DNA of 38,399 bases from Verrucomicrobiia bacterium Tous-C4TDCM (GTDB lineage Bacteria; Verrucomicrobiota; Verrucomicrobiia; Verrucomicrobiales; Akkermansiaceae). Where the stretch lies: contig NEUO01000017.1 of the NCBI GenBank assembly GCA_002304315.1, positions 1 to 38,399 on the forward strand. Reading direction: 5' to 3'. Of the stretch, positions 9,227 to 28,070 are shown one piece after another (positions within the stretch are counted from its first letter, which is position 1; every line of letters begins with the position of its first letter). The position numbers were made by a program, and so were the translations under genes. The notes under the pieces were generated by a model, which worked only from the letters and a program-made list of their open reading frames with translations, ran no database searches and had not been told where the DNA came from.

Positions 9227-9261
9227 GGCACTTGGAACTTCTCACTTGGACCTTTCCTTCA
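9227..9261 (+). repeat. 7-nt-periodic array (GGCACTT type) before a start codon
   Basis: Consecutive heptads read GGCACTT, GGAACTT, CTCACTT and GGACCTT (9227-9254), then a decayed TCCTTCA. The array occupies the whole gap between the recR stop and the methyltransferase ATG at 9263, where a Shine-Dalgarno site would be expected. The same four-unit pattern, including the odd third unit CTC-CTT, recurs upstream of aroG at 23578. Confidence 0.75.
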
Positions 9262-9262
9262 A

Positions 9263-10111
9263 ATGCCCCCTCCACCCCGCAAACGCCCGAACTTCCCCGG
9301 CAGCAAGCCCTGGCAGCGCCCCGGTCCGCCGCCGCCGAAAAAGCGCGCGGGCGAACAGGGCTGGGACCCCGTCGCGGGTTGGTACGACAAGCTGGTCGGC
9401 GACAAGGGCTCCGACTACCACCGCAACGTCATCCTGCCCGCGGCGATGCGATTGCTGGCGGTGGCGCCGGGCGAGAAGGTGCTCGACCTCTGCTGCGGCC
9501 AGGGGGTGCTGATCCCGCTTTTGTTAGAAGCGAAGGCCGGCGCGGTGACGGCGGTCGATGCCAGCCCGCAGTTGATCGCCTCCGCGACCAAGCGCTTTGA
9601 AAAGGACAAGCGTGTCCGTTTGATCGTCGCCGATGCCTGCGCGCCGGGCCCCTGGGCCGATGGCTCGCACGATGCCGCCGCCTGCATCATGGCGGTCCAC
9701 GATGTGCCCGATCTTCCCGCGATGGCCCGCCAGACCGCGGCCGCCCTGAAGCCGGGCGGGCGCTTCGTCGCGATCTTCATGCACCCCTGTTTCCGCATCC
9801 CTCAGCAGTCGCACTGGGGCTGGGACGAGGGCCGCAAGCTGCAGTTCCGCCGAGTCGACCGCTACGGCGTGCCGCAGGAAATCCCGATCCTCACCCACCC
9901 GGGGCAGGGCGGGGGATTGACCACCACCTTCTATCACCGCCCGGTCGGCGAGGTGCTCAGCGCCTTCGGCAAGGCGGGGCTGGCCGTCACCGAATGCGAG
10001 GAACTTTTCAGCCATCGTCGCTCGCAGCCGGGCCCGCGGGCGAAGGGCGAGAACCGTGCGGTGCAGGAGTTCCCGGTCTTCATGGCGATCTCCTGCGTCA
10101 AACTGCCGTGA
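9263..10111 (+). CDS. Class I SAM-dependent methyltransferase
   Basis: A 282-residue protein. The first 30 residues are Pro/Lys/Arg-rich and probably disordered (MPPPPRKRPNFPGSKPW). The catalytic domain begins near GWDPVAGWYDKLVGDKG, with SAM motif I VLDLCCGQGVLIPLLL, motif II AVDASPQLIASA and a motif around LIVADACAPGPWADGSHD. The stop overlaps the GTG start of menH (GTGA), so the two are coupled. This suggests a role near menaquinone metabolism, but it lacks the usual MenG/UbiE signatures, so I do not assign the demethylmenaquinone methyltransferase step. It may instead modify another quinone or a small molecule. Confidence 0.85.
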   Translation: MPPPPRKRPNFPGSKPWQRPGPPPPKKRAGEQGWDPVAGWYDKLVGDKGSDYHRNVILPAAMRLLAVAPGEKVLDLCCGQGVLIPLLLEAKAGAVTAVDASPQLIASATKRFEKDKRVRLIVADACAPGPWADGSHDAAACIMAVHDVPDLPAMARQTAAALKPGGRFVAIFMHPCFRIPQQSHWGWDEGRKLQFRRVDRYGVPQEIPILTHPGQGGGLTTTFYHRPVGEVLSAFGKAGLAVTECEELFSHRRSQPGPRAKGENRAVQEFPVFMAISCVKLP

Positions 10112-11022
10112 AAGGAACGCTCTGGTGCCTGCACGGAGCCGTCGGCCAGGCCGGCGACTGGCAGGGCTTCGGCGTGCCGGAGTGGGGAGTGAAGCGGGTC
10201 GATCTCTGGCGCTTCCTCGACTGCTGCCCGATGACGATGCCGGAGTTCGGCCGGGCGCTGAACGCGGAGGCCGCGGGGGCGGCAGATGGTAGATGGCAGA
10301 TGGTGGATGGTAGATGGAAGGCACCTGGTCCGCGCGATGGCTCTTCAGTGGCGGGGGTAAATGGTAGATGGCAGATGGCAGATGGAGGATCCGAGCCAGA
10401 AATGCCGGATCCGTCGCTTCGGGATCTACCATCTACCATCTACCATCCACCACCTGTCCTCCGAAGCCTTGGCGAAGGAGGATCTACCATCACCCGCAGG
10501 GTCTTAGTCGGCTACTCGATGGGTGCGCGGCTGGCCTTGCATGCGTTGTTAGACGGCGGTCCCTGGGATGCGGTCGTGCTGGTCGCGCCGCATCCGGGGC
10601 TCGAGTCGGAGTTGGAGCGGGCGGCGCGGCGGGAAAGCGATGCCGAATGGGCGGGGCGGGCTTTGACCGGGGATTGGCGGGAATTTCTCACGCTGTGGAA
10701 TGCCCAGGCAGTGCTGGCGGATTCGGGACGCTTGCCGTCGGTGAGCGATCTCCGCCGCCGCGAGGTCGCGCGGAGTTTTATGGACTGGTCGCTGGGCGCG
10801 CAGGAGCCGCTGTGGGAAAGATTGGGCGAGATCCAATGCCCGGTTTTGTGGTGTGCCGGCGAGCGGGACGTGAAATTCCGAGCCCTCGCCGAGCGGGCGC
10901 TGCCGCTTTTGCCGCGGGTTGAGCTGTGGGTCGCGCCGGGTGCCGGGCACCGGGTGCCGTGGGACGCGCCGGAGGCATTCGCGGCAAAGGTCGGGGAATT
11001 TCTTGAGCGGGTGCGGTCCTGA
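10108..11022 (+). CDS. menH: MenH-like alpha/beta hydrolase with an in-frame repeat insertion
   Basis: A 304-residue protein from GTG 10108, overlapping the previous stop. The fold marks of SHCHC synthase (MenH; eliminates pyruvate from SEPHCHC) are present: LWCLHGAVGQAGDW near the N terminus, nucleophile Ser137 in VGYSMGARLALHAL, Asp254 in CAGERDVKF and His281 in APGAGHRVPW. Between the N-terminal strand region (ending near FGRALNAEAA, residue 56) and the nucleophile elbow lie about 70 extra residues (GRWQMVDGRWK ... PSTIYHPPP) encoded by heptad repeats. Removing them leaves about 234 residues, close to normal MenH. The insertion is in frame, so the enzyme may still fold. menB follows 18 bp downstream. 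Assignment to MenH rests on fold plus context. Confidence 0.85.
   Translation: MKGTLWCLHGAVGQAGDWQGFGVPEWGVKRVDLWRFLDCCPMTMPEFGRALNAEAAGAADGRWQMVDGRWKAPGPRDGSSVAGVNGRWQMADGGSEPEMPDPSLRDLPSTIYHPPPVLRSLGEGGSTITRRVLVGYSMGARLALHALLDGGPWDAVVLVAPHPGLESELERAARRESDAEWAGRALTGDWREFLTLWNAQAVLADSGRLPSVSDLRRREVARSFMDWSLGAQEPLWERLGEIQCPVLWCAGERDVKFRALAERALPLLPRVELWVAPGAGHRVPWDAPEAFAAKVGEFLERVRS
10284..10495. repeat. Heptad-repeat element in opposing orientations, in frame inside menH
   Basis: Two forward arrays of an AGATGGY-type unit, at 10284-10318 (five units) and 10357-10391 (five units, reading GTAGATG/GCAGATG), are followed by the reverse complement: ATCTACC units at 10424-10451 (four units) and a shorter one at 10482-10495. 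The spacer contains GGATCCG twice. RNA could fold into a long stem. The element adds about 70 codons without a stop or frameshift. Confidence 0.85.
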
Positions 11023-11040
11023 GCCGACACTGCCGCCGCC

Positions 11041-11856
11041 ATGTGGACCACCGTTTGTGAATTTGAGGACATCCGTTTCGAAACGACGGACGAGGGGCAG
11101 ATCGCCAAGATCACCATCAACCGCCCGGAAGTGCGAAACGCGTTCCGCCCGCAGACGGTGAAGGACATGCTCGCCGCTTTCGAACTGGCCCACGAGGACC
11201 CGCAGGTCGGGGTGGTGATTCTAACCGGTGAAGGACCGGATGCCTTTTGCTCCGGCGGCGACCAGAAGGTGCGCGGCCATGCCGGCTACATCGGCGGCGA
11301 TGGCGTGCCGCGGCTCAACGTGCTCGATTTGCAGAAGAAGATCCGCGGCTTGCCGAAGCCGGTGGTCGCGATGGTCGCCGGCTACGCGATCGGCGGCGGC
11401 CACGTGCTGCACGTCGTCTGCGACCTGACCATCGCCGCCGACAACGCACGCTTCGGCCAGACCGGGCCGAAGGTCGGATCCTTCGACGGCGGCCTGGGAT
11501 CCAGCTACCTCGCTCGGATCGTCGGCCAGAAAAAGGCGCGCGAGATCTGGTACCTCTGCCGCCAGTACGACGCCCAGCAGGCACTCGACATGGGTCTGGT
11601 GAACACCGTGGTCCCGCTTGCCGAGCTGGAAACCGAGACCTTGAAATGGTGCCGCGAGATGCTCGCCCACTCGCCGCTCGCCCTGCGTTGCCTGAAGTCG
11701 GCGCTCAACGCCGACTGCGACGGCCAGATGGGTCTGCTCGACCTCGCCGGCAATGCGACCCTGCTCTACTACATGAGCGAGGAGGCGAAGGAAGGGAAGC
11801 AGGCCTTCATCGAGAAGCGGAAGCCGGACTTCTCGAAGTTCCCACGGGTTCCTTGA
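11041..11856 (+). CDS. menB: 1,4-Dihydroxy-2-naphthoyl-CoA synthase
   Basis: A 271-residue crotonase-superfamily enzyme that closes the second ring of the menaquinone head group from OSB-CoA. Diagnostic segments are the oxyanion-hole region [13 protein letters not shown], the second oxyanion segment [21 protein letters not shown], and the MenB-specific run [19 protein letters not shown] followed by [21 protein letters not shown]. The C terminus [13 protein letters not shown] is also family-typical. It lies 18 bp after menH. The rest of the pathway in this window (menA, menC, menE) resumes after the autotransporter gene. Confidence 0.97.
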
Positions 11857-11911
11857 TCTGGGGGGCTTTTCCGGGGCCTCCACCGCCCGGACCCGCTGAC
11901 CGTCAAATGGA

Positions 11912-11940
11912 TTGACCTCAATTCGGGTTTTATCTAATAA
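11912..11940 (+). promoter_or_regulatory. Sigma70-like promoter upstream of the autotransporter
   Basis: TTGACC (11912-11917), a 17-bp spacer and TAATAA (11935-11940) sit in a locally AT-rich patch that stands out from the GC-rich surroundings. Transcription from here would give an untranslated leader of roughly 180 nt before ATG 12130. Confidence 0.5.
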
Positions 11941-12129
11941 ATATTCAATCGCTTCGCACCCGAGACGATCGATGCCCCCCCCTCTTGGCGCTGGTTCCCT
12001 ACCCTGAAAGCAGCGGTTGATTCCCCGGTCATCAGTGGCTGTTGGGCGCAAGGTCAGGGCGGGGTGGATTCGATCCGATGGATCGAGGCAGCCCAACCCT
12101 CCCCCTCGAGGGGTCAACCGACACAAACC

Positions 12130-13638
12130 ATGAAAATCAAAAAGGAAACCTATGCCATGCTGGCGGCCATTCTTGCCACCGGCAGCATCGCAGACGCACA
12201 CATCGTGGCACTCGGCTGGAACGCCCTTCCCGGCGGCTCGGTCCAGTTCTCCGCCCTCCACTGGCACGGCAACTCGGAACCGGACGGTTACCTCCTGTTT
12301 GACGGGGTGGAGTATCCTTTCACCAGCTTCATTTGGGACACCCCCACCATCACGGGCTTCGATGGGGGTCTGATCAACTCGGATTACGCCACCTGGACTC
12401 CGGGCTCCGGCACGATCAACGCCGTGGACACCGGCGACGGTCTCCAAACCAACTGGCTGACCGTTACCGTCCCAAACGTCACGGGTGGAACCCACACCAT
12501 CGGCTCTTCCGATATCGCCCTGACCGAGTGGACGCTCGATGGTGATCTTGCCGAGTTCGAGTTCGACTTCACCGGCGGTGGCGACTCCGCCGCGCTCCTG
12601 TCCTCGACCCTGCGCCTGACCTCGATCAGCGTTGCCCGCAGGGTGACCCGCGATGTCGGCGACCGCCTGTTCCGCATGCGTGCCGGCCGCCCACAAGCCG
12701 GTGGTCAACAGGCCGCTGCCGCTCCCGCCGCAGCCACCGATGCCAAGGGAGGCATGGTGCAGAGCTCCAAGTCACCAATCATGATGCCGGCGGAAACCCG
12801 CAATTGGGAAGTTTACGGCACGGTGTTCTACTTCACCGAAGATCAGGACCAGCAGAACCTGTCGGCCCGCACGGCCAACGGTGCGCTGGTCACCCGGACC
12901 GTCCATCCCGATACCTCGGTGGACATCTTCGGTGGCAATGCCGGCTTTGAATACCGCTTCAACAATCGCGTGAGCGTTGGTTTAGCCGTGGGTGCCTCCA
13001 CGACGGACGTCGACATGACCACCATCGGTAGCTCGGACATCGATACCCTCGCGCTGATGCCCTACGTCTCCTACTATCAGGAAGACCTGCTGGGTGCCGC
13101 CGATTTCTACGCCGACGCCCTTTATGCTTATGGCATGAACGAGTATGACACCCGTCGTCTCAGCGGCGGTGGCATCGCCACCGGCTCCCCGGACGGCGAT
13201 TTCCACCAGATCGAACTCACCACGGGCCTCAACTACGCTTCGGGATCGCTGATTCACGGACCGTATGCCTCGCTCCGCTGGTTGGACGGATCGATCGATG
13301 GATACACGGAAGCCGGCCCTGGCGCGGCGATCTACCCCTCGGCTGACTTCGAATCCCTGGCCACCAACCTTGGCTATCAGGTTTCCTATCCGATGCAGCT
13401 TGCCGGTGGTGTGCTGGTGCCCCAGGCCCGCGCGGCTTGGGAGCATGAGTTCGAAACCGACGCGACCGGTGCCTTCGGCCTTCCCGGTGGCGCGGTGGAC
13501 GATGATCTCGCGATCCTCGGCACCGGACTCGGCTATTACTTGAACAGCGGTTGGAACGTGGCACTCGACTACGAGGCCCGCCTCGGCAGCGAGAACCAGT
13601 CGCACTATGTCGGTCTGAAGGCTGGCTACGAGTTCTGA
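12130..13638 (+). CDS. Autotransporter-type outer-membrane beta-barrel protein
   Basis: A 502-residue exported protein. The signal peptide is MKIKKETYAMLAAILATGS, with cleavage near IADA. Residues 25-180 form a Gly/Thr/Asp-rich beta passenger (HIVALGWNALPGGSVQFSAL; GGTHTIGSSDIALTEWTLDG) with no recognised enzyme motif. An Ala/Gln-rich linker (about 195-215) leads to a C-terminal domain with alternating strands (FGYxF-type; NAGFEYRFNNRVSVGLAVG) that ends in the barrel signature LKAGYEF. It probably displays a short passenger at the cell surface. It has its own promoter-like site and terminator and lies between menB and menA, so it is likely an independent unit within the menaquinone locus. Confidence 0.85.
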   Translation: MKIKKETYAMLAAILATGSIADAHIVALGWNALPGGSVQFSALHWHGNSEPDGYLLFDGVEYPFTSFIWDTPTITGFDGGLINSDYATWTPGSGTINAVDTGDGLQTNWLTVTVPNVTGGTHTIGSSDIALTEWTLDGDLAEFEFDFTGGGDSAALLSSTLRLTSISVARRVTRDVGDRLFRMRAGRPQAGGQQAAAAPAAATDAKGGMVQSSKSPIMMPAETRNWEVYGTVFYFTEDQDQQNLSARTANGALVTRTVHPDTSVDIFGGNAGFEYRFNNRVSVGLAVGASTTDVDMTTIGSSDIDTLALMPYVSYYQEDLLGAADFYADALYAYGMNEYDTRRLSGGGIATGSPDGDFHQIELTTGLNYASGSLIHGPYASLRWLDGSIDGYTEAGPGAAIYPSADFESLATNLGYQVSYPMQLAGGVLVPQARAAWEHEFETDATGAFGLPGGAVDDDLAILGTGLGYYLNSGWNVALDYEARLGSENQSHYVGLKAGYEF

Positions 13639-13663
13639 AGCAGCAAGACGCACCATTTGTCCG

Positions 13664-13698
13664 AGCCCGCCCTGGTCGACACCGGGGCGGGCTTTTTC
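13664..13698 (+). terminator. Intrinsic terminator of the autotransporter gene
   Basis: A 9-bp perfect GC-rich stem (AGCCCGCCC at 13664-13672 with GGGCGGGCT at 13685-13693), a 12-nt loop and a T5 tract, 26 nt after the stop codon. Confidence 0.88.
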
Positions 13699-13713
13699 AT
13701 TGCCGGGAGTGCC

Positions 13714-13751
13714 CTGGGAGCGCCGGTCTTCAGACCGGCTCGAATGGCCCC
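13714..13751 (+). repeat. REP-like palindrome, single copy
   Basis: GGGAGCGCCGGTCTTCAGAC continues to CCGGCTCGAATGG, matching the forward copy at 8024-8055 almost base for base. It lies between the autotransporter terminator and menA. Confidence 0.85.
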
Positions 13752-13814
13752 TGACTGCCGTCTCCCCCGGGTTCTTTGCTTGGCAGGAAGCGCCGGGGCG
13801 GGCTTGTTCCGGGC

Positions 13815-14690
13815 GTGATCGTTCCGCTCCTGCTCGCCACCCGGCCGAAAACCCTGCCGGCCGCCATCGTCCCGGTCTGGGCCGGCTGTGTGCTGGCGTG
13901 GAAGTTGACGGGGAACTTCGACGGTCTGCTCGCCTTCTGTACGGTGGCCGGGGCGGTGTGCATCCAGATCGCGACGAACCTTTTCAACGACGCGATCGAT
14001 GCCGCGAAAGGCGCCGACACCGAGCGCCGGACCGGCCCCCAACGGGTGACCGCCAGCGGTCTGCTTTCGCGGCGGGCGGTGATGAGCTGGGCGGGCGTGT
14101 TCCTCGCGGCGGCCATCGCCTGCGGGGTGGTGCTCTATCAGGCCGCGGGCTGGCCGATCCTGGCGATCGGCGTGCCGTCCCTCTACCTCGCCTACGGCTA
14201 CACCGGCGGGCCGTTCCCGCTGGCTTACCGCGGCATGGGAGAGCTGTTCGTGGTGATTTTTTTCGGGCTGGTCGCTGTGGCGGGCACGGTCTTCATCCAG
14301 ACCCTGCAGTGGCGACCGGAGGCGCTGCTGTTAGGCGGGCAGGTCGGGCTGCTGTCGGCGGTGCTCATTTCCATCAACAACCTGCGCGACCGGGCGGAGG
14401 ATGCGACCACTGGGAAGCGGACCCTCGCGGTGCGCTGGGGGCCGAAGCCGGCGCGGCTGATCGTCTGGCTGGAAATCAAACTTGCGGTGTTCCTCGGGCT
14501 GGCCTGGTTTTTGTTCGGCCTGCCTTGGCTGGTGCTGGCGACTTTGCCGCTGTGGACGCTGGGTCTGCGGATCCTGTGGGGTGCCTTCACGATGCCGGAA
14601 GGGCGGGAAATGAACCGCCTTCTGGCGATGTCGGCCTTGCAACTGGTGGCATTTGCAGCGCTGTTCCAGGTGTTGGCCGTCCTCCTCTGA
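13815..14690 (+). CDS. menA: 1,4-Dihydroxy-2-naphthoate polyprenyltransferase
   Basis: A 291-residue UbiA-family membrane enzyme that joins DHNA to the polyprenyl diphosphate tail. The first Asp-rich motif is in NLFNDAIDAAKGAD, preceded by LATRPKTLPAAIVPVWAG; the second is NNLRDRAEDATTGKRTLAVRWG. Eight or nine hydrophobic helices follow the usual spacing. The start is uncertain: GTG 13815 puts the N terminus just before LLLATRPKT as in other MenA proteins, while an in-frame TTG at 13776 would add 13 residues. The stop is 7 bp before the menC ATG. Confidence 0.93.
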   Translation: MIVPLLLATRPKTLPAAIVPVWAGCVLAWKLTGNFDGLLAFCTVAGAVCIQIATNLFNDAIDAAKGADTERRTGPQRVTASGLLSRRAVMSWAGVFLAAAIACGVVLYQAAGWPILAIGVPSLYLAYGYTGGPFPLAYRGMGELFVVIFFGLVAVAGTVFIQTLQWRPEALLLGGQVGLLSAVLISINNLRDRAEDATTGKRTLAVRWGPKPARLIVWLEIKLAVFLGLAWFLFGLPWLVLATLPLWTLGLRILWGAFTMPEGREMNRLLAMSALQLVAFAALFQVLAVLL

Positions 14691-14697
14691 CCCACCC

Positions 14698-15660
14698 ATG
14701 AGCAATCTCCTTTGGTATTGGCACTATCGCCTGAAAAGCCGGCGTCACCTCAACGCCCGCTCGAAGCGGCGGGAGTTCGAGGGAATCCTGCTGCGCGACG
14801 GCGAGGGCGGCTACGGCTGCATCCACCCGTGGCCGGAACTGGGTGATCCGACGCTTGCCAGATGCCTCGAGGACCTCGGTGGAGCACGCCGCTGGCCGAT
14901 CGTCCGCCGCGCGCTCCGCTGCGTGGAGATGGACGGCGCGGCGCGGTCGATGAAAGACCCGCTGTTCGAGGAGTTGGAGGTTCCCGCGAGTCACGCGACC
15001 CTGGCGGGTTGCGATGAGGATCAGGTCCGCCGCGCGGTCGATGCCGGTTTCACCTGCGCCAAGCTGAAGCTCGGTGGCGTGACGTCTTCCGAACTCGCCT
15101 TCCTCGAGCGGATGAACTCCCTGCATCCCGGGCTGCGCTGGCGGCTGGACTTCAACGAAACCGGCGATGCCGCGGAGCTCGGCGAGTGGTTCGCGGGAAT
15201 GCCGGCCGAGGTGGTCTCGCGGATCGATTTCCTGGAAGACCCCGCGCCCTTCGCGGATTCCACTTGGCGCGAGCTGCATCGCAAGACGCGGATCCCGCTG
15301 GCGATCGACCGCGAGTCGGCACCGGGCCGTTCCGCGGCGCAGGTGATGGTGATCAAGCCGGCGGTCGACGAGCCGTGGTTGCTCGCGGAAGCGGCGGCTG
15401 CCAACGGCCAGCAGGTGGTGGTCACCAGCTACATGGACCACCCGCTCGGCCAGACCTTCGCGGCCTGGGAGGCGGGGCGGCTCGCCTTGCAATTCCCCGG
15501 GCTGGTCGGCACCTGCGGCTTGCAGACGCATCATCTGTTCGAGCCCGATGCCTTCACCGAGGCTCTCGGACCGTGGACGCCCGCTTTCAACGCCCCGCCG
15601 GGCACCGGGCTGGGATTCGATGACCTGTTAGACAAGCTGCCATGGAAGCGGGTTCCCTGA
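14698..15660 (+). CDS. menC: o-Succinylbenzoate synthase
   Basis: A 320-residue enolase-superfamily enzyme that dehydrates SHCHC to o-succinylbenzoate. The catalytic set is visible: Lys122/Lys124 in CAKLKLGG, metal ligands Asp151 (RLDFNE), Glu180 (DFLEDP) and Asp204 (AIDRES), and the second general base Lys220 (VMVIKPA). Length and N-terminal capping domain resemble the short Bacteroidetes-type MenC. It is coupled to menE: the next start overlaps its stop (TGATG) or lies 19 bp inside it. Confidence 0.93.
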   Translation: MSNLLWYWHYRLKSRRHLNARSKRREFEGILLRDGEGGYGCIHPWPELGDPTLARCLEDLGGARRWPIVRRALRCVEMDGAARSMKDPLFEELEVPASHATLAGCDEDQVRRAVDAGFTCAKLKLGGVTSSELAFLERMNSLHPGLRWRLDFNETGDAAELGEWFAGMPAEVVSRIDFLEDPAPFADSTWRELHRKTRIPLAIDRESAPGRSAAQVMVIKPAVDEPWLLAEAAAANGQQVVVTSYMDHPLGQTFAAWEAGRLALQFPGLVGTCGLQTHHLFEPDAFTEALGPWTPAFNAPPGTGLGFDDLLDKLPWKRVP

Positions 15661-18443: not shown

Positions 18444-18448
18444 ACCCC

Positions 18449-18476: not shown

Positions 18477-18481
18477 CCTTC

Positions 18482-19253: not shown

Positions 19254-19271
19254 ACCTAGGCTTTTGCGGCA

Positions 19272-19556
19272 ATGAACAAGACGGAGGAAGTGAAGGTGGA
19301 GCGCGAGTTCGCGTGGATCGGGGATGCGGTGCTGGCGCTGTTCGCCCGGTCCTGGGTGCTGCGCGAGCGGGGATCAATGGATGGCGAATGGTTCACCCGG
19401 CTGACCTCGAATGATTTCCTGAGTGCGTTCGGCCCTCCGACCGCCGTCGAGGCGAAGATCGGCCGGATCTACCGCGAGCAGGGGCTGGACGCGGCCTTCT
19501 CGTGGATCGATGCCGAGTTCATCCCGCTGTTCCGCAAGCAGATGGCGAAGCGGTGA
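19272..19556 (+). CDS. Mini RNase III-like single-domain protein
   Basis: A 94-residue protein starting MNKTEEVKVEREF. The segment EFAWIGDAVLALFARSWVL matches the RNase III signature (EFLGDAVL type), with the conserved Asp18. FTRLTSNDFLSAFGPPTAVEAKIGRIY covers the following helices, where Mini-III has its second acidic region (here EAKIG). No dsRNA-binding domain is present. It is shorter than Bacillus Mini-III (about 140), and two of the four expected acidic ligands are hard to place, so activity is uncertain. It is 18 bp after the lipoprotein gene and probably co-transcribed with it. Confidence 0.6.
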   Translation: MNKTEEVKVEREFAWIGDAVLALFARSWVLRERGSMDGEWFTRLTSNDFLSAFGPPTAVEAKIGRIYREQGLDAAFSWIDAEFIPLFRKQMAKR

Positions 19557-19569
19557 GGCTGAAAGCCGA

Positions 19570-19718
19570 GTTGAGAGTCTAGGGTTGATTGTTGATAGTT
19601 TGGAATAAGGGGCTTGCGCCGAGTTCCTGGCTCACCCGGAGAATGAGGTTCCAATCCGACGTGAATTCTTCTGGATCAGCTATCAACCATCCACTTTCAA
19701 CTATCGACTTTCCTCTTA
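19570..19718. repeat. Two heptad arrays in opposite orientation
   Basis: A first array (19570-19604) reads in sevens as GTTGAGA, GTCTAGG, GTTGATT, GTTGATA, GTTTGGA. A second array (19677-19718) reads CAGCTAT, CAACCAT, CCACTTT, CAACTAT, CGACTTT, CCTCTTA. Reverse-complementing the second yields GTTG/ATAG units like those of the first. The pair sits between two convergent genes with 72 bp of unrelated sequence between the arms. Confidence 0.7.
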
Positions 19719-19734
19719 GGGTGAGCGATTCCCG

Positions 19735-20469: not shown

Positions 20470-20617
20470 CGGCCGACCTTTTCAAGACCTCCCGCCGCGC
20501 CGATGCAAGCCCGGGGGATGGAGACGTCTGTTGGGAGAGCGACCACGACACGCCGGCCTCACGGATCGGGCGGCATTTTTTCGGCGAGTGACGGTTCGTA
20601 GCGCCGGGCGATCCCGA

Positions 20618-20773: not shown

Positions 20774-20882
20774 CGTCGGGGAATCGGACCGGGAGGATCG
20801 TCGAAGGGAAAAGTTCCGCGCGAACGCGAAGACGGCCGGAGCTCGCGCGCCGGCCGTTCTCGAAAACGGGAGAATGATACAA

Positions 20883-21203: not shown

Positions 21204-21235
21204 GGCGGGAAGGTGGAGGGGACCCCGGAAATGTC

Positions 21236-21270
21236 AAGGACCGCCCTGCCACGGGGGCGGAGCGGTCCTT
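21236..21270 (-). terminator. Hairpin, possible terminator downstream of 21295-22030 genes
   Basis: AAGGACCGC (21236-21244) pairs perfectly with GCGGTCCTT (21262-21270) around a 17-nt G/C-rich loop. On the minus strand it follows the small ORF at 21295-21375. The T-tract is weak, so termination is only plausible. Confidence 0.5.
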
Positions 21271-21294
21271 GCAGAAGCAGATCGACGCGGATCC

Positions 21295-21375
21295 TCAGGT
21301 CGGCGTGGTGCCGGTGAGGAAGGCCAAGGCGAGAACGCCGGCGGCGATGAGGAAGGTGATGATGGGGTAGATCAT
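21295..21375 (-). CDS. Candidate 26-residue membrane microprotein
   Basis: A short frame (ATG 21375, TGA ending at 21295) encodes MIYPIITFLIAAGVLALAFL followed by TGTTPT: a single hydrophobic helix with a short polar tail. It begins 25 bp after the stop of the Pro/Ala-rich membrane protein on the same strand and is followed by a hairpin. I see no clear Shine-Dalgarno site. Such a clean TM peptide in this gap is suggestive but could be chance. Confidence 0.4.
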   Translation of the reverse strand: MIYPIITFLIAAGVLALAFLTGTTPT

Positions 21376-21400
21376 GGGATTGGTGAGTTTCGGGTTGTCG

Positions 21401-22030
21401 TTAGAACAGCTTGTCCCAGCCTTCCCAGAGGCTGACGGTCATGCTCTGAAGCACCACCACGGCGGCGGCGCCGACGAAGCCGAGGATCGAGAGGATGTTC
21501 GAAATGGTGGAGACACCGGCGCTTTCCTCTTCGTCACCGGAAGTGCGGATGGTGGCGGCCTGGGTCAGCGAGGGACCGGAAGTGCCGAGCGGCTGGGTCG
21601 GCGGCTGGAGCTGCACGGTAGCCTTCGGCAGGGAAACGGTCTGGCCGCCGGGAGCACCGAGCGGGGCGGTCTTCAGCGCGACGGTCGGAGCACCGGCACC
21701 CACGGGGGTGTTCAAGCGGATCGTCGGGGCGGGAGCCGGGGCAGTAGGGGCACCGGCGGGGCGGAGGGCGATGGTCGGCGCTGGGGCGGGACGCGGCGCG
21801 GCCACGCTCGGGGCCGGCGGAGCTGAAATGCCGCTGGGCATCGGGGGCTTCGGCACGACAGGTGCTCCGGGAGCGGCTGGCGGCGCGTCGGATGCCTTGA
21901 GGGTCACCCGCACGGTCTCCTTTTTCAGCGGGATGGACGAAGTTTGCTTGGAGGCCGGCATCGACGAGGTGGCCCGGGGTGCGGGGATCGTCGAGGAGGG
22001 CTGTGGTGGTGGGATTTCGTTTTCGCTCAT
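21401..22030 (-). CDS. Pro/Ala-rich protein with C-terminal TM helix
   Basis: A 209-residue protein. Residues 1-165 are low-complexity Pro/Ala/Ser/Thr-rich and probably disordered, with a charged SIPLKKETVRVTLKA motif near residue 32 and several repeats of the form PTIxLxxP/PTVALK. A single TM helix (about 178-200: ILSILGFVGAAAVVVLQSMT) is followed by SLWEGWDKLF. This is a tail-anchored topology with a long flexible arm. I do not recognise the family. The KKETVRVTL motif and the repeats may be binding sites for a partner. Confidence 0.75.
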   Translation of the reverse strand: MSENEIPPPQPSSTIPAPRATSSMPASKQTSSIPLKKETVRVTLKASDAPPAAPGAPVVPKPPMPSGISAPPAPSVAAPRPAPAPTIALRPAGAPTAPAPAPTIRLNTPVGAGAPTVALKTAPLGAPGGQTVSLPKATVQLQPPTQPLGTSGPSLTQAATIRTSGDEEESAGVSTISNILSILGFVGAAAVVVLQSMTVSLWEGWDKLF

Positions 22031-22205
22031 TGCGGGGCGTTTCTGGATTGCGAGGTTGGAGAAGGCAACCAGCCCCCTGCCGACGTGTCAAACCTCCATC
22101 TCGCGTCCGGACCAAAGTGCGGGATCTTTTTTCGTTTCCGGTGCGATCCCGCCATTTGCCGTCCGGGTGCTTGACCCGGCGGGGATCGGGCTTTGACTGC
22201 CTGCC

Positions 22206-23564
22206 ATGACCACGCGTCGCTCTTTCCTCGGCACCACCGGCCTGGCTTTCCTCGGCCTGCAGCACTACACCCGGGCGGCGGATTCTTCCCGGGTGATCGA
22301 GCCCTTCGGCCCGCTGATCAAGGACCCGAAGGGAATCATCGATCTCCCGGAAGGCTTCCGCTACCGGCTGCTGGCGAAGCGCGGCGAGCCGATGACCGAC
22401 GGCTTCAAGGTCCCCGGCATGGCCGATGGGATGGCGGCCTTCGCGGGGCCGGACGGTAAAGTGGTGGTCGTCTGCAACCACGAGATTGGTCTTGAAATGA
22501 CCGGCATGGGGCCCTTTGCGAATAATACGCGGTTGCCCGACGGCTTCGATGCCGCGCTTTCGTTCGATTCGGGCGACGATGGCCGGAATCCGTCGCTCGG
22601 CGGCACCACGAACCTCGTTTTCGACCCGGCGAGCGGCGAAAAGACCGCGCATTTCCTGTCCCTCACCGGCACCGACCGCAACTGCGCCGGGGGGGCGATG
22701 CCTTGGGGCTCATGGATCACCTGCGAGGAACCGGCGGATCTTACCCAGGGCCACGGCCAGCGCCACGGCTGGTGCTTCGAGGTGAAAGCGACCGCCGAGC
22801 CGGGCGTGCAGAAGCCGGTCCCGCTCAAGGCGCTCGGCCGTTTCCGCCACGAGGCCGTGGCGCTCGATCCTGAAACCGGCATCCTCTATCTGACCGAGGA
22901 CCGTGGCGACGGGCTGCTTTACCGCTTCCTGCCGGAGAAAAAGAACGACCTCACCAAGGGCCAATTGCAGGCGCTGGCGATCGTCGACAAGCCGTCCGCC
23001 AATCTCCAGAACTACGATCCCGATTCGAAGTGGCTGGCGGCCGGCTCGGCGATGAAAGCGACGTGGATCGACCTCAAGGACACCGATTCGCCGAAAGACG
23101 ACCTGCGGATCCGCGGTCACAAAGCCGGCGCGGCTCGCTTTGCCCGCGGCGAGGGGATTCACCTCGTCGGCAAATCCTTCTTCATCTGCTGCACCGACGG
23201 CGGGCCGTCTCGCCGCGGCCAGATCTTCAAGCTCGATCCCTCCGGTGACGCCGCGAAACCCGACACGCTCGAGCTTTTCCTCCAGCCTGAGGAAAGCGAC
23301 CTGCTGACCAACGGCGACAACCTCTGCCCGGCTCCGTGGGGCGGGATCGTCATCTGCGAAGACCTGATCGACCCCAGCTTCTCGCCCGCCGCCCACGTCC
23401 GCTGCGTCACGCCGGAGGGCAAGATTTTCACCCTCGCCCGGAATTCCAACGGCCAGGGCGAATTCGCCGGGGGCTGCTTCTCGCCGGACGGCAAGTGGTT
23501 CTTCGTCAATCTCCAGGCCCGCGGGCTGACGCTGGCGGTGACCGGACCTTGGGAGAAGGCGTGA
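22206..23564 (+). CDS. PhoX-like (DUF839) Tat-exported protein
   Basis: A 452-residue protein beginning with a Tat signal peptide (TTRRSFLGTTGLAFLGL, twin-arginine motif RRSFLG), so it folds in the cytoplasm and is exported folded. The body shows PhoX/DUF839 features: LPEGFRYRLLAKRGEPMTDG, CNHEIG, GGTTNLVFDP, WGSWITCEEP, RFRHEAVALDPETGILYLTED and LCPAPWGGIVICED. PhoX is a calcium/iron alkaline phosphatase; the acidic and aromatic ligands look largely present, but activity cannot be confirmed. It stands alone, 52 bp upstream of aroG with a heptad array between them. Confidence 0.9.
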   Translation: MTTRRSFLGTTGLAFLGLQHYTRAADSSRVIEPFGPLIKDPKGIIDLPEGFRYRLLAKRGEPMTDGFKVPGMADGMAAFAGPDGKVVVVCNHEIGLEMTGMGPFANNTRLPDGFDAALSFDSGDDGRNPSLGGTTNLVFDPASGEKTAHFLSLTGTDRNCAGGAMPWGSWITCEEPADLTQGHGQRHGWCFEVKATAEPGVQKPVPLKALGRFRHEAVALDPETGILYLTEDRGDGLLYRFLPEKKNDLTKGQLQALAIVDKPSANLQNYDPDSKWLAAGSAMKATWIDLKDTDSPKDDLRIRGHKAGAARFARGEGIHLVGKSFFICCTDGGPSRRGQIFKLDPSGDAAKPDTLELFLQPEESDLLTNGDNLCPAPWGGIVICEDLIDPSFSPAAHVRCVTPEGKIFTLARNSNGQGEFAGGCFSPDGKWFFVNLQARGLTLAVTGPWEKA

Positions 23565-23577
23565 GCGGCCTTTCTTT

Positions 23578-23612
23578 GGCACTTGGCACTTCTCCCTTGG
23601 CACTTTTCTCTA
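23578..23612 (+). repeat. 7-nt-periodic array (GGCACTT type) before aroG
   Basis: Units GGCACTT, GGCACTT, CTCCCTT, GGCACTT (23578-23605) and TTCTCTA precede the aroG ATG at 23617. The unit order matches the array at 9227, including the third CTC-CTT unit, so the two are copies of one element. Confidence 0.78.
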
Positions 23613-23616
23613 AGGG

Positions 23617-24660
23617 ATGCCCTCGCGCGTCACCGACCTCCACATCGCCCGCAACGTCCCGCTGCCGTCGCCGGCCCGCTTGCAGGCGGAAATCCCGCGC
23701 GGGGATGCTCGGGCGGACTTTGTTGCAAACTCCCGCGCCAACCTGCGATCGCTGCTTTCGGGCAACGACCCGCGTTTTCTGGTGATCGTCGGGCCTTGCT
23801 CGATCCATGACACCGAGGCCGGCATCGAATATGCACACCGCCTCGCCGCCTTGGCGGAGCGGCTGCGCGACAAGCTCTACCTGGTCATGCGGGTCTATTT
23901 CGAAAAGCCGCGCACCACCGTCGGCTGGAAGGGCCTGATCATGGACCCGCGTCTCGACGGCACCGATGACATCCCGGAAGGCCTGCGCCGGGCGCGGCAT
24001 TTTTTGCGCAGCGTCATCGACCTCGGCCTGCCGACCGCGACCGAGTTGCTCGATCCGATCACCCCGCAGTACATCGCCGACCTGATCTCCTGGTCGGCGA
24101 TCGGCGCGCGCACCGCGGAAAGCCAGACGCACCGACAGATGGCGTCCGGGCTGTCGATGCCGCTCGGTTTCAAGAACACGACTTCCGGTGATCTCGTCGC
24201 CGCGATCAACGCGGTGAAGGCCGCCGGCCAGCCGCAGACCTTTCTCGGCGTGTCGGAAGAAGGCATCGCCTCGGCCGTCACCACCACCGGCAATCCCGAC
24301 TGCCATGTCATCCTGCGCGGCGGCGACCACGGCCCGAACTACGACGAAGCTAGTATTTCCGCCGCCCGCGCCGCGTTGATCGCCGCGAAACTCCCACCGA
24401 GCCTGGTGATCGACGCCTCCCACGCCAACTGCGCCAAGGACTGCGCGAAGATGCCCGGCGTCTTCCGCGAGATCGTCCGCCAGCGCGCCGCCGGCGACCG
24501 CTCGATCATCGGGTCGATGCTGGAAAGCAACCTCGTCGCCGGCAACCAGTCTTTCCCCAAGCCGCTCGACCAGCTCGTCCGCGGGCAGTCGATCACGGAC
24601 TCGTGCATCGACTGGGAGACGACGGAGGAGTTGCTGCGGGAGGCAGCGGGGATGCTGTGA
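23617..24660 (+). CDS. aroG: 3-Deoxy-7-phosphoheptulonate (DAHP) synthase, class I
   Basis: A 347-residue enzyme that condenses PEP and erythrose-4-phosphate as the first step of aromatic amino-acid and chorismate synthesis; chorismate also feeds menaquinone. Motifs: LVIVGPCSIHD, VMRVYFEKPRTTVGWKG, PTATELLDP, IGARTAESQTHRQMASGLSM, GFKNTTSGD, ILRGGDHGPNY and VIDASHANC, ending EAAGML. ATG 23617 is chosen because an upstream start would lie inside the repeat array. Its last 27 or so codons are echoed by a decayed copy about 1 kb downstream (25618-25698). Confidence 0.96.
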   Translation: MPSRVTDLHIARNVPLPSPARLQAEIPRGDARADFVANSRANLRSLLSGNDPRFLVIVGPCSIHDTEAGIEYAHRLAALAERLRDKLYLVMRVYFEKPRTTVGWKGLIMDPRLDGTDDIPEGLRRARHFLRSVIDLGLPTATELLDPITPQYIADLISWSAIGARTAESQTHRQMASGLSMPLGFKNTTSGDLVAAINAVKAAGQPQTFLGVSEEGIASAVTTTGNPDCHVILRGGDHGPNYDEASISAARAALIAAKLPPSLVIDASHANCAKDCAKMPGVFREIVRQRAAGDRSIIGSMLESNLVAGNQSFPKPLDQLVRGQSITDSCIDWETTEELLREAAGML

Positions 24661-24722
24661 CTCAGGCCTTCCTGCCTAAGAATGCAGCACGACAGTGCGT
24701 TTTAGCGGACGTGCGACATTTG

Positions 24723-25589
24723 ATGGTCATGCTTGCGGCGCTGGTGTTCGGGGGCGGGTGCGATAAGGCCAGTCTGCAAGAGAAGGGGGCTTCCTCCTTG
24801 CGCGGAGCCACCGTCAAGGACCTCGTCACATCGGAATCAGCTCCGGCGTTTCTTCCGGGGAACGCCGCAGTTACCGAGGTCGTGCAAGCCAATGGATCCT
24901 GGGAGTTTTATCACGACAAGGCGCTTGTGGCCCTCGCTCGCTCCGAGCCGGGGGCCTTCGAGGCCTTCAAGGAAACAAGGGAAAAAGCGGCGTTGGAAGG
25001 GGTCTCGTCCCGCATTCTGGTAAGTGCCAGTGCGGGGACGCGGTTCAAGGAATTGCGAAGGTCGGCGCGGGGAGCGTTCGATTCCGGATATGACCGACTG
25101 GATTTCCTCGTCCGCGGATCGGCTACCGCCGATGAACAACGCGCCTTTTATCTGGAGTTCCCGCCCGCGGTCGGGAGTCTTGTGCCACCGGACATTGAGC
25201 CGAAACTTGTCAAAATTGATTTCGATGGGGCGATCTCCGTCAACGCCGCCGCCAGTCTGATCCCGCTGGACAGGGCGGATTCGGATTCGTCGCTTCCGTT
25301 GTTGAACGAGGACCTATTGAGCTATGCAGCCGCGGCACGAGGCGCCGCCTCGACTCCGGTGGTGCAAATCCTGGTCGACGGCGATGCCACCTATCAACGC
25401 TGGATGGATGTCATGGCTCGTTGTCATGCGAATGGGTTCACACGCGTCCTTGTCGTGGATGTGAACATGGACATCGAGACAACGTGCCAAGGGATGACAT
25501 GCCCGGCATCAAATCCGGGTCCGGGCCATCTGCCGGTCGCACCTTCAGCGGACCGGTTGGCCACGCAGTTTCCGATCAGGGTGGACTGA
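24723..25589 (+). CDS. Lipoprotein with ExbD/TolR-like C-terminal region
   Basis: A 288-residue protein. From ATG 24723 the N terminus is MVMLAALVFGGGC, a short type II signal with the lipobox Cys at residue 13. The middle (about residues 20-190) has no family match I can name. The C-terminal part contains PVVQILVDGDATYQRWMDVM followed by ARCHANGFTRVLVVD, which resembles the periplasmic fold of ExbD/TolR (v.i.aD...y..v..v...c...g...v.l). ExbD proteins are TM-anchored; here the anchor would be lipid. The gene lies between aroG and a decayed copy of the aroG 3' end, which suggests it was inserted. Upstream in-frame starts (24603 and others) overlap aroG. Confidence 0.65.
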   Translation: MVMLAALVFGGGCDKASLQEKGASSLRGATVKDLVTSESAPAFLPGNAAVTEVVQANGSWEFYHDKALVALARSEPGAFEAFKETREKAALEGVSSRILVSASAGTRFKELRRSARGAFDSGYDRLDFLVRGSATADEQRAFYLEFPPAVGSLVPPDIEPKLVKIDFDGAISVNAAASLIPLDRADSDSSLPLLNEDLLSYAAAARGAASTPVVQILVDGDATYQRWMDVMARCHANGFTRVLVVDVNMDIETTCQGMTCPASNPGPGHLPVAPSADRLATQFPIRVD

Positions 25590-25617
25590 GCCGGCTCGCC
25601 CGTTTCCTTTTCCAACC

Positions 25618-25698
25618 GCAGGTCGAAGGGTCACGGGTTCATCCATCGGCCGGGAGACGACGGGGTTGCAGGTGGAGGAGGCGGCGGGGATGCTGTGA
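25618..25698 (+). pseudogene. Decayed duplicate of the aroG 3' end
   Basis: The last 60 bp (25639-25698) align without gaps to the last 60 bp of aroG (24601-24660) at 47 of 60 positions, both ending GGGGATGCTGTGA. In the matching frame this reads SSIGRETTG followed by LQVEEAAGML against SCIDWETTE and ELLREAAGML in AroG. Similarity extends weakly upstream (AGRRVTG for RGQSITD). No start or upstream domain is present, so it is a tail fragment, not a gene. Confidence 0.7.
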
Positions 25699-25713
25699 AG
25701 GCGGGATCCAACG

Positions 25714-25795
25714 AACCGCAGAGACGCAAAGGTCACAGAGGCGAACGCTGAGTTGCAGGTATTTCCGGGATTCCCGAAACCAGGTGCCAGGTGGC
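25714..25795 (+). repeat. Short mixed repeats downstream of the aroG relic
   Basis: AACCGCAGAGACGCAAAGG is followed by TCACAGAGGCG (25714-25744, roughly 8-nt period, resembling a CGCAGAGA-type repeat). A short palindrome CCGGGATTCCCG lies at about 25766. CCAGGTG CCAGGTG GCA near 25781-25797 has a 7-nt period. These fill the non-coding gap before the toxin gene. Confidence 0.5.
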
Positions 25796-25816
25796 AATTC
25801 TCCCTAGACAGCTCCT

Positions 25817-26119
25817 CTATCGGCGAAGGCGCTCCATCCAGTATTCCGGCTGACGCTTCTGGTGCATCACGCAAACGATTCGAATGTGAGAACCGCCCTG
25901 ATCATACCCGTAGTAAAGCTTGTAAGGCCATCGGTTCAGCCGGAAGACCCGGAGCCCGTCTCCGAGGTGCTGGAATCTTCCGGGCTCCTTGAGGATCGAC
26001 ATTACTGCCTGGCCTATTGCCGCGGCGAAGCGCCCGCCCAAGCCCTCGACCTGATCCTCATACCAATGGGCTGCGTCGGCATACTCCTGCTCCGCAGCAG
26101 GGTGGAACTCGTAGGTCAT
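25817..26119 (-). CDS. RelE/ParE-family toxin
   Basis: A 100-residue toxin-type protein. MTYEFHPAAEQEYADAAHWY, then EDQVEGLGGRFAAAIGQAV and the basic core FRLNRWPYKLYYGYDQGGSH with IRIVCVMHQKRQPEYWMERL, match the ParE-like toxin fold (two N-terminal helices, then a beta sheet). It probably inhibits gyrase or cleaves mRNA; the sequence does not decide. The start overlaps the antitoxin stop by 4 bp on the same strand, a standard type II operon with the antitoxin first. Confidence 0.9.
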   Translation of the reverse strand: MTYEFHPAAEQEYADAAHWYEDQVEGLGGRFAAAIGQAVMSILKEPGRFQHLGDGLRVFRLNRWPYKLYYGYDQGGSHIRIVCVMHQKRQPEYWMERLRR

Positions 26120-26355
26120 GACTTCCGTCGAGCATCCAGTGAGGCCTGCACCCGGGCGAGAACCAGATCTCCCGGGACGCCAGCGATGGTGCCCGATCGC
26201 ATTTCGGAAAGGCGTTTCCGCGCGATTTCGATCTGCTCTTCCTCAATGTCGCGATAGCCCGGCATGCTGATGATCAGTCGTTCGACCAGATCCATACGAA
26301 CCTCCTCCGGAAGCTGCAATGCTTCCTGAAATACTGCATCCGCTTGTGAGACCAT
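26116..26355 (-). CDS. Antitoxin, addiction-module (TIGR02574-like) family
   Basis: A 79-residue protein from MVSQADAVFQEALQLPEEV. The segment ALQLPEEVRMDLVERLIISM and the long acidic-to-basic helix IEEEQIEIARKRLSEMRSGT are typical of the small putative addiction-module component that pairs with ParE-like toxins. It would bind the toxin and probably autoregulate the operon. Upstream codons in frame are not antitoxin-like. It diverges from proS with about 200 bp between the starts, containing a heptad array. Confidence 0.85.
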   Translation of the reverse strand: MVSQADAVFQEALQLPEEVRMDLVERLIISMPGYRDIEEEQIEIARKRLSEMRSGTIAGVPGDLVLARVQASLDARRKS

Positions 26356-26493
26356 GGCGGACGTTAACCTCCGTCGGGGAACTTGGCAATGTCCGGGTGG
26401 ACAGGGGTGTCCCGGGATTCCTGCCTGAGATTTCGCGTGCAAATCCCCGCGTCCCCGGTTCCAAATCCGCGCGCCGCGCCTCTGACTGCCTTT

Positions 26494-26542
26494 CATTCGA
26501 CATTCGACATTCGATGTCGGGCGTTCGATGTTCGATGTTCTC
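26494..26542 (+). repeat. 7-nt-periodic array (CATTCGA type) before proS
   Basis: Seven consecutive heptads: CATTCGA x3 (26494-26514), TGTCGGG, CGTTCGA, TGTTCGA, TGTTCTC (26515-26542). The array ends 10 nt before the proS ATG at 26553. The centre CGACATTCGATGTCG is a palindrome. There is no Shine-Dalgarno-like sequence between the array and the start. Confidence 0.8.
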
Positions 26543-26552
26543 TTCCCAAGCC

Positions 26553-28070
26553 ATGTCCGACAAAACCGCCATCACCCCGACCCGCGCCCAGGATTTCCCC
26601 GAATGGTATCAGCAGGTCATCAAGGCCGCCGACATGGCGGAGAATTCCGAGACCCGCGGCTGCATGGTCATCAAGCCGTGGGGCTACGGCATCTGGGAGC
26701 TGATCCAGCAGCAGCTCGACCGGAAATTCAAAGCGACCGGCCACCAGAACGCCTACTTCCCGCTGCTGATTCCGATCGCCTATCTGGAAAAGGAAGCCGA
26801 GCACGCCGAGGGCTTCGCGACCGAGTGCGCGGTGGTCACCCACCATCGTCTTGAGATGGTGAAGGACCCCGTCACCGGCAAGACCAAGATGATCCCCGCC
26901 GGCGAGCTTTCCGAGCCCTACGTCATCCGGCCGACTTCCGAGACGATCATCGGCGCGGCTTTCTCGCGCTGGGTCCAGAGCTACCGCGACCTGCCGCTTT
27001 TGATCAACCAGTGGGCCAACGTCATGCGCTGGGAAATGCGTCCCCGCCTGTTCCTGCGCACCGCCGAGTTCCTGTGGCAGGAAGGTCACACCGCGCATGA
27101 GAGCCAAGACGAAGCAGTCGCCGAAACGCGGATGATCCACGGCCTTTACGAGGAGTTCCTCCGCAACCACCTCGCGATCCCGGTGATCCCCGGCGAGAAG
27201 ACCGAAAACGAGCGCTTCCCCGGTGCCGACATGACCCTCACTGTCGAAGCAATGGTCCAGGACCGCAAGGCGATCCAGGCCGGCACCTCGCACTACCTCG
27301 GCCAGAATTTCTCCAAGGCGCAGGACATTTCCTTCACCGGCCGCGACGGCACCATCCAACATGCCCACACCACCTCGTGGGGCGTTTCGACGCGGATGAT
27401 CGGCACGCTGATCATGGCGCACGCCGATGACGACGGCCTCGTGCTGCCGCCGCGGGTGGCGACCCAGCAGATCGTGATCATCCCGGTCACGCCGAAAGAA
27501 GACACCCGGGAAGCGGTGCTCGATGCCTGCCAGGCGCTCGCCGAGACGCTCCGCCGCGAGAAGAATTTCCACGGCGATCCGCTGCGCGTCCACGTCGACA
27601 CCCGCGACCTCCAAGGCGGCGTGAAGAAGTGGGAGTGGGTGAAAAAGGGCGTGCCGATCCGTATTGAGATCGGACCGCGCGACATCGAGACCCGCAAGGT
27701 CTGCGTGCAGCGCCGCGATCAGCCGAGCAACGCGAAGGAGTTCGCCGACAAGGAAGACTTCCTCCGCAACGCCACCGACATCCTGCAGGAAATCCACGAC
27801 ACGCTGTTGCAGCGCGCGACCGAGTTTCGTGATGCGAACATTGTGCCCTGTGATTCACTCGATGGCTTCCACGCTCATTGGGCGCAGGACAATCCCGGAT
27901 GGCTCATCACCTCATGGGGCGGCACCCCGGAGCAGGAGGACGAGCTTTCCAAGCAGCACAAGATCACCATCCGCTGCCTGCCGCTCGACCAGCAGGACGG
28001 CCAGGAAGCGAAGTGTTTCCTGACCGGTCATGGGACGAAGGCGAGGGCGATCTGGGGGCGGAGTTATTGA
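26553..28070 (+). CDS. proS: Prolyl-tRNA synthetase, archaeal/eukaryotic-type (ProS3)
   Basis: A 505-residue class II synthetase. Motif 2 is RWEMRPRLFLRTAEFLWQEG followed by HTAH, the catalytic-domain head includes GCMVIKPWGYGIWELIQQQL, and motif 3 lies around WGVSTRMIGTLIMAHADDDG. The anticodon-binding domain (ATQQIVIIPVTPKED and RRDQPSNAKEFADKEDFL) is followed by the short C-terminal zinc-like domain, and the last residue is Tyr (IWGRSY), a conserved feature of this type. It lacks the long editing insert of E. coli ProRS. The start MSDKTAIT is chosen because the frame upstream is the repeat array. Confidence 0.96.
   Translation: MSDKTAITPTRAQDFPEWYQQVIKAADMAENSETRGCMVIKPWGYGIWELIQQQLDRKFKATGHQNAYFPLLIPIAYLEKEAEHAEGFATECAVVTHHRLEMVKDPVTGKTKMIPAGELSEPYVIRPTSETIIGAAFSRWVQSYRDLPLLINQWANVMRWEMRPRLFLRTAEFLWQEGHTAHESQDEAVAETRMIHGLYEEFLRNHLAIPVIPGEKTENERFPGADMTLTVEAMVQDRKAIQAGTSHYLGQNFSKAQDISFTGRDGTIQHAHTTSWGVSTRMIGTLIMAHADDDGLVLPPRVATQQIVIIPVTPKEDTREAVLDACQALAETLRREKNFHGDPLRVHVDTRDLQGGVKKWEWVKKGVPIRIEIGPRDIETRKVCVQRRDQPSNAKEFADKEDFLRNATDILQEIHDTLLQRATEFRDANIVPCDSLDGFHAHWAQDNPGWLITSWGGTPEQEDELSKQHKITIRCLPLDQQDGQEAKCFLTGHGTKARAIWGRSY

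Follow-up and report, generated by a model that had tools for sequence, protein, structure and literature searches.

Heptad arrays ahead of start codons in a Verrucomicrobiia genome as candidate promoter arms for leaderless mRNAs

The window studied here, the whole 38,399-nt contig NEUO01000017.1 of Verrucomicrobiia bacterium Tous-C4TDCM, contains tandem arrays of 7-nt units (heptads), some of which end a few bases before start codons. One family, the GGCACTT type, below called type D, proved to be a conserved module of four non-identical heptads that is dispersed through the genome and often locked at short distance to the starts of genes; in an array-poor member of the same genus, TTG-like and -10-like hexamers precede start codons with the spacing of a promoter. 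On balance, we lean slightly towards reading the type D arrays as dispersed -35/spacer arms of sigma-70-type promoters for leaderless mRNAs.

The genome holding the window is a 4.28-Mb assembly in 206 contigs, 72% complete, and its nearest named relatives are a Verrucomicrobiaceae metagenome-assembled genome and Haloferula species, followed by Akkermansiaceae and other Verrucomicrobiales. Eighteen genomes of the genus were compared in all; where they have to be told apart they are labelled G002–G017 etc., and loci carry an L and a number. Gene starts were predicted with a simple dicodon gene finder, on which the start calls rest. The stretches L143–L149, chosen for their pattern hits, were excluded from the all-family array rates and the TTG/-10 leader rates given below and were kept in gene prediction and in the positional profile of TTG and TA. 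As type D copies may descend from one another, the p-values overstate independence.

The arrays are real and exceed what chance produces. The window has four period-7 stretches with at least 16 of 21 matches, against a mean of 0.02 in 50 dinucleotide shuffles, and 606 kb of the same genome hold 23 period-7 arrays (score at least 14) against 0 in one shuffle; the comparison with shuffled sequence suggested in the first-pass annotation thus bears the arrays out. Seven is the commonest period in these 606 kb, with others present too (10, 10 and 13 arrays of periods 6, 8 and 12), and 400 kb of G010 contained no period-7 array at a score of at least 14. The pattern TCNAC, taken three times at 7-nt steps, occurs 256 times in the Tous-C4TDCM genome versus once at 8-nt steps; the 7-nt pattern with its letters reversed, run as a control, gave 140 matches, probably other tandem arrays that happen to fit it.

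The type D consensus is 30 nt long, TTGGCAC TTGG[CA]AC TTCTCAC TTGG[CA]AC TT. Allowing up to three mismatches, we found it in 12 of the 18 genus genomes, with copy numbers from 0 to 61 (41 in Tous-C4TDCM, 51 in G008, 61 in G017, 31 in G006 and none in G015), and the reversed pattern gave 0 matches. The surroundings of all 41 Tous-C4TDCM copies were examined: 22 end 5–13 nt 5' of an ATG or GTG that opens a coding open reading frame (ORF), ten of them at exactly 12 nt, and in all 22 the sense strand is pyrimidine-rich. Counted with the predictor's own starts, as in the null, 16 of the 41 are start-linked, against 1.9% of random intergenic 30-mers; set against that null with the copies treated as independent, 22/41 gives p = 2e-27. 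The distance is independent of the upstream gap (11 nt with a gap of 99 nt, 6 with 1099, 12 with 564 and 12 with 177), and the spacer between array and start varies in sequence and little in length. The recurrent position 5' of start codons, first noticed at three genes of the window, thus holds genome-wide for this family.

The lock is mostly a property of type D, since the enrichment over all families is only weak. A census by autocorrelation (score at least 12) or the TCNAC pattern found 36 period-7 arrays in 916 kb, weak arrays such as that at 9225–9254 falling below its reach; five lie inside genes, and 6 of the other 31 are at most 25 nt before a start, against 5.4% in the null (p = 0.0055). 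The enrichment before starts that a genome-wide period-7 scan had been expected to reveal is therefore clear for the GGCACTT type and weak for the families together. Taken modulo 7, the start distances of 44 pooled leaders are clustered (Rayleigh test, p = 2e-7); in Tous-C4TDCM alone, period 6 scores slightly above 7 (0.59 vs 0.55), so it is G017 and the pooled leaders that carry the claim of a phase lock. A further search gave 53 hits, 26 of them with a start within 28 nt, and is used qualitatively only, as six Tous-C4TDCM loci and repeat hits are included.

The first-pass annotation had also remarked that no Shine–Dalgarno (SD) sequence separates array and ATG. None was seen in the array-to-ATG intervals of the three window genes, but the lack is not special to array genes: leaders in Tous-C4TDCM (SD 4-mers in 7% vs 8% at control positions), G008 and G010 show no enrichment of SD-like 4-mers, and the lack is general in the genus sample tested. 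Akkermansia is listed as SD-scarce (PMC10783764), in agreement with this. What does precede the starts, in array-bearing and array-free genes alike, is a TTG[AGC] peak at -34 to -38, joined in G008 and G010 by one at -40 to -41, together with a TA...T peak at -12/-13. The pair formed by TTG at -38 to -33 and [TC]A...T at -13 to -11 was found in 23 of 566 leaders of Tous-C4TDCM, 13 of 247 in G008 and 13 of 296 in G010, against 0, 1 and 1 at control positions; the first two sets include some array leaders, and G010 is array-poor. The 13 examples from G010 read TTG-like hexamer, 16–19 nt, [CT]A...T, 6–7 nt and ATG or GTG, which, judged by sequence, is how a promoter would be laid out if its transcript began at the start codon and so were leaderless. 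At the level of the family this has some support: PMC4782308 reports that 10% of the transcription start sites mapped in A. muciniphila are leaderless, the figure for E. coli being 0.4%.

Counting one row per distinct leader, TTGG[CA]A was found between -36 and -34 in 16 of the 22 array leaders of Tous-C4TDCM. In the 12-nt class, the commonest (10/22), the second TTGG[CA]A stands at -35, 17 nt before a hexamer that ends 6 nt ahead of the start, and the [TC]A...T proxy for a -10 hexamer occurs at -13 to -11 in 9/22 array leaders vs 44/566 sampled starts of the genome (Fisher p = 4e-5). We propose that TTGG[CA]A of one heptad would act as the -35 hexamer, that the next two heptads and 3 nt would form the 17-nt spacer, and that the 5–13 nt from array to start codon would hold the -10 hexamer plus about 6 nt, the first base of the mRNA being that of the start codon. 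The module itself would be a dispersed repeat, sometimes an inverted pair with arms directed outward like the ends of a promoter-bearing miniature inverted-repeat transposable element (MITE), gained at a new gene in one case (L351) and kept in another (aroG).

The first of these cases is an L351 gene that has a type D array in Tous-C4TDCM only, of 17 loci compared. The array adjoins CATCCTCCCCCC-ATG (CATCCT-CCCCCC-ATG), a stretch that is unchanged in G006 and G015 and almost unchanged in G008; the array positions TTGGAA 17 nt ahead of CATCCT. At the equivalent place G004 has a heptad-like stretch, weak and different in sequence. Given that the -10 region is identical in array-free relatives, the array looks as if it had been placed directly upstream of it. 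At aroG, the array of the window has its second TTGGCA starting 34 nt 5' of ATG 23617, and its two-heptad core, TTGGCAC-TTGGCAC, recurs without change in G003, G008, G009 and G011; G010 and G015 each differ from it by one change, and in G012 it was not seen. The G010 locus reads TTGGCGC-TTGGCAC at -41/-34 with TAGGAT at -12. Thirty-seven further aroG loci were read by eye (L063 and L064 among them are G008 and G015): in five of them (L081, L083, L085, L091 and L093, from records that are unclassified or assigned to Verrucomicrobiales/Verrucomicrobiota) a TTGAAAC or TTGATAC with TTGAA behind it stands at about -39 to -31, and L066, L067 and L071 have TTGAAAC-type arrays. At lpxC, the module occurs in Tous-C4TDCM, G011, G013 and G017, species whose proteins are about 80–93% identical, with differing loops and a right array common to all four.

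A translational role, as the first-pass annotation had envisaged, has to be weighed here. The arrays would then be transcribed 5' leader elements, with an RNA-binding protein, perhaps ribosomal protein S1, replacing the SD interaction; the pyrimidine-rich sense strand of every start-linked copy and the three genomes without SD enrichment speak for this, as do the TAACTGA arrays of Beggiatoaceae, which occupy the same position and for which a translational role was proposed (PMC4679880). Yet the array-poor G010 lacks SD enrichment as well, the TTG/-10 geometry at the start fits leaderless mRNAs, and at L351 and aroG the array takes the place of the -35/spacer-like stretch of the relatives. As the start-codon spacing and the register of the units fit a leaderless promoter better, we do not favour a translational role and consider it unlikely.

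Several results weigh against the promoter reading. Of the 22 array leaders, 13, lpxC included, are without the simple -10 proxy. Seven of the 41 Tous-C4TDCM copies lie at or just 3' of a stop codon in purine-rich orientation, and 12 are near neither start nor stop (in one of these, L338, the contig end cuts the copy next to an ATG). Among the matches listed for G017 (17 leaders, from the 18 topmost regions), 11 of the arrays lie 19–20 nt from the start, where the unit at -35 is TTCTCAC, a poor -35, and a TTGG[CA]A between -36 and -34 was seen in five leaders. In favour of a promoter, 12 of these 17 leaders show a -10-like hexamer, and most of the 19–20-nt arrays are separated from the start by a short palindrome, variable in sequence, that brings TAGGCT/CAGCCT to -12. 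The comparison at aroG covers some of the relatives only, and the lpxC loci were selected by array pattern, so array-free orthologues escape view. Nor were array leaders found to be better conserved between Tous-C4TDCM and G008 (0.81, n = 5, vs 0.82 for other leaders, n = 50; only starts flanked by 60 nt on either side were used).

A more tentative extension of the promoter reading takes tandem TTGNNAC heptads for a ruler, a platform along which the -35 of a leaderless promoter can slide. Arrays one or two 7-nt steps further out (distance peaks near 5–6, 12–13 and 19–20 nt) would still place a unit at -35, and the module could spread as an outward-facing arm, handing SD-less genes a ready-made promoter. 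We hold this to be possible rather than probable.

Two side observations touch these loci. Palindromes with differing arms (GAGGCGCAGCCTC, GAGCCGTAGGCTC, GCAGCCGTAGGCTGC) directly follow type D arrays and end ~6 nt before starts at G017 L355, L360, L362–L366, L368 and L369, and also at L302 and L314 (G002). At lpxC (L336, L360, L311) genes predicted to be divergent flank a type D pair whose arms face outward, an arrangement like that of a bidirectional promoter.

Within the window, the three arrays ahead of start codons were located where the first-pass annotation had put them, and the genes that follow are indeed unrelated, coding for a methyltransferase, a DAHP synthase and ProRS. The first array fits between the recR stop (ending at 9223) and the methyltransferase ATG 9263, from which it is 8 nt away, and the same place is occupied in the closest relative, G008. 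Table 1 gives all the arrays.

Table 1. Heptad arrays and the MITE-like element of the window
Feature	Positions	Strand	Remarks
Type D (GGCACTT-type) array	9225..9254	+	Four heptads + TT, one mismatch to module
Three GATGGTA/CATCTACC arrays, inverted pair	10281..10452	.	In frame within alpha/beta-hydrolase gene
163-bp MITE-like element, inverted ends formed by heptad arrays (GTTGATA type)	19558..19720	+	GTGAG 5-bp direct repeats at 19553-19557 and 19721-19725
Type D array	23576..23605	+	Ahead of aroG (DAHP synthase) ATG 23617, distance 11 nt
CATTCGA/TTCGATG heptads, proS leader	26494..26540 (26494-26514 + 26523-26540)	+	Family other than type D

The 163-bp element is, from its sequence features, best described as MITE-like: it is short, non-coding and dispersed, with terminal inverted repeats and a target-site duplication. 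Matches number 33 in Tous-C4TDCM (some partial), 10 in G008, two in G006 and one in G009, and a search of the remaining 14 genomes of the genus gave none. From 30 element loci, the 19 copies aligned over more than 100 nt (17 from Tous-C4TDCM and two from G008) were taken for a direct-repeat test; their consensus ends near CCTAAAA/TTTTAGG and has heptad arms. Direct repeats of at least 5 bp flank 7/19 copies and of at least 4 bp 9/19, the null for the latter having a mean of 1.4 and a maximum of 6 in 2000 shuffles. It is located at stop codons and within gaps; at the window copy, the GTGAG repeat takes in the stop codon of a predicted gene ending at 19556. The array pair around 19583/19717, which forms the inverted ends of this element, and the type D arrays are two different kinds of thing, and the proS array is neither.

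Such elements raise the question of whether all the arrays are mere functionless ends of mobile or palindromic repeats, found near starts owing to the choice of target and to their survival where gaps are short. Besides the heptad-ended element with its direct repeats above the null, this would agree with the polarity of neighbouring arrays of opposite orientation (the purine-rich one on the left in 11/12), with the lineage-specific presence of arrays, and with the inverted partner that 10 of the 41 Tous-C4TDCM type D copies have within 200 nt, the others looking single. The type D arms, however, keep 5–13 nt to the start even with upstream gaps of 92 to 1099 nt, the array-to-start spacer is variable in sequence and little so in length, and the aroG core is common to most congeners compared. 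The earlier suggestion that insertion is tolerated only before genes thus suits the 163-bp element, with its stops and gaps, and not the GGCACTT arms, whose distance persists despite gaps of ~90 to more than 1000 nt. We regard functionless repeat ends as a doubtful account of the start-linked arrays.

The three start-proximal arrays had been taken for one phenomenon, and here the analysis disagrees: that of proS belongs to a different family in a lineage-specific leader. It ends about 10–12 nt ahead of ATG 26553, and a search for three CATTCGA units with 0–2 mismatches found this leader as the only matching place in the genome. The leader extension is absent from five of eight aligned relatives (G004, G006, G008, G010 and G012) and present without heptads in G003, G011 and G015. 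Upstream, at 26431–26475, a stretch conserved in nine aligned genus sequences (GCGTGCAAATC ... CCAAATCCGC) ends at the ATG in species without the extension. A CTGCCTTTC / GAAAGGCAG motif adjoins arrays of several families (26486–26494, L017, L024, L145, L146 and L237). We suggest that the array of proS, like the remaining heptad families, may be an arm of further hairpin or MITE-like repeats, and claim no promoter role for any of these. Local heptad expansion does occur, as the left arm of L272 and the long perfect arrays of L022 and L148 show. Arrays of octads, among them GACCTTCA and CACCGAAT, occur at L013 10274–12628, L145 9159–9233, L161 and L020; in L145, the steps go from 8 nt to 7 nt and back to 8 nt, with the core unchanged. 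The alpha/beta-hydrolase gene of the window (GTG 10108 to 11022) has its in-frame heptad hairpin directly ahead of the GYSMG segment, and at the equivalent place G008 has 39 nt with a shorter heptad array of a different type; the array type can thus change at one site.

Other readings were considered. Regulators of the SARP-LAL type are known to target heptameric direct repeats (PMC5930380), and TTGNNAC pairs precede aroG in several species; a sequence-specific regulator reading direct heptad repeats is nevertheless very improbable, the downstream genes named so far being unrelated and a copy number of 0 to 61 among congeners being odd for a conserved regulon. Rho binds YC spaced every 7–8 nt, and as a general explanation fails with TTGGCAC units, which contain no YC. 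G-quadruplexes were rejected because type D (antisense GTGCCAA), GATTGTC and CATTCGA units have no G-tracts, and 7-nt slippage alone is at odds with a conserved, non-identical four-unit module in 41 copies. A single heptad family for all arrays fails as well: a three-unit consensus finds few (12 overlapping hits), and the families differ in position. A shared grammar NNTYNRC, with units ending in AC, is suggestive, an impression and not a result. A scan of the window against Rfam gave 0 RNA family matches.

We found no publication on arrays of this kind in Verrucomicrobiota in a search limited to the open-licence literature. The cyanobacterial heptanucleotide short tandemly repeated repetitive (STRR) sequences are intergenic, with 7-nt units of other sequences than those seen here, and we know of no start-codon lock for them. 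They had been named as the closest analogue and are not the sole one, since the TAACTGA (PMC4679880) and GGGNATC (PMC4692102) arrays, as described in those papers, are equally close in position; by analogy, the published counterparts seem to be these two and the promoter-bearing MITEs. Among the latter, the Correia elements of Neisseria are described as small dispersed inverted repeats with sigma-70-like promoters (PMC10969869), and BrickBuilt of Porphyromonas gingivalis as a MITE with 23-nt minisatellite tandem repeats and bidirectional promoter activity (PMC4596501). Type D shares with them the small dispersed repeats, in some copies inverted pairs, and, as a prediction here, the sigma-70-like promoters; unlike them, it has heptads in its arms, a near-fixed start spacing, leaderless geometry and frequent solo arms, and belongs to another phylum. 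Direct TAACTGA heptamers are reported from Beggiatoaceae, cyanobacteria and Bacteroidetes, in Maribeggiatoa mostly a few nucleotides before starts, and resemble our arrays in period, start proximity and strain-specific spread (PMC4679880); whereas they have one fixed unit, here there are several families (TTGGCAC, TTGGAAC, CATTCGA and others) and a non-identical four-unit module. The GGGNATC / GGGGA[CT]T arrays of Xanthomonas and Nostoc lie either in the 50 bp ahead of ORFs, with the G-rich strand antisense, or behind stops, with that strand sense, and so share the period of 7 and the strand polarity of type D arms around genes; the G-quadruplexes by which that source explains them need G-tracts, which TTGGCAC, GATTGTC and similar units lack (PMC4692102).

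Start-proximal heptamer arrays in unrelated bacteria have so far been explained as translational sites or G-quadruplexes. In this genus of Verrucomicrobiota, in which the leaders sampled show no SD enrichment, their spacing matches that of a leaderless promoter, which offers a simple and testable reading of a recurring oddity. If it is true, the arrays would be parts of promoters that spread and thereby rewire genes, aroG and lpxC among them, and the ruler principle, if true as well, may underlie the start-proximal heptamer arrays of other phyla.

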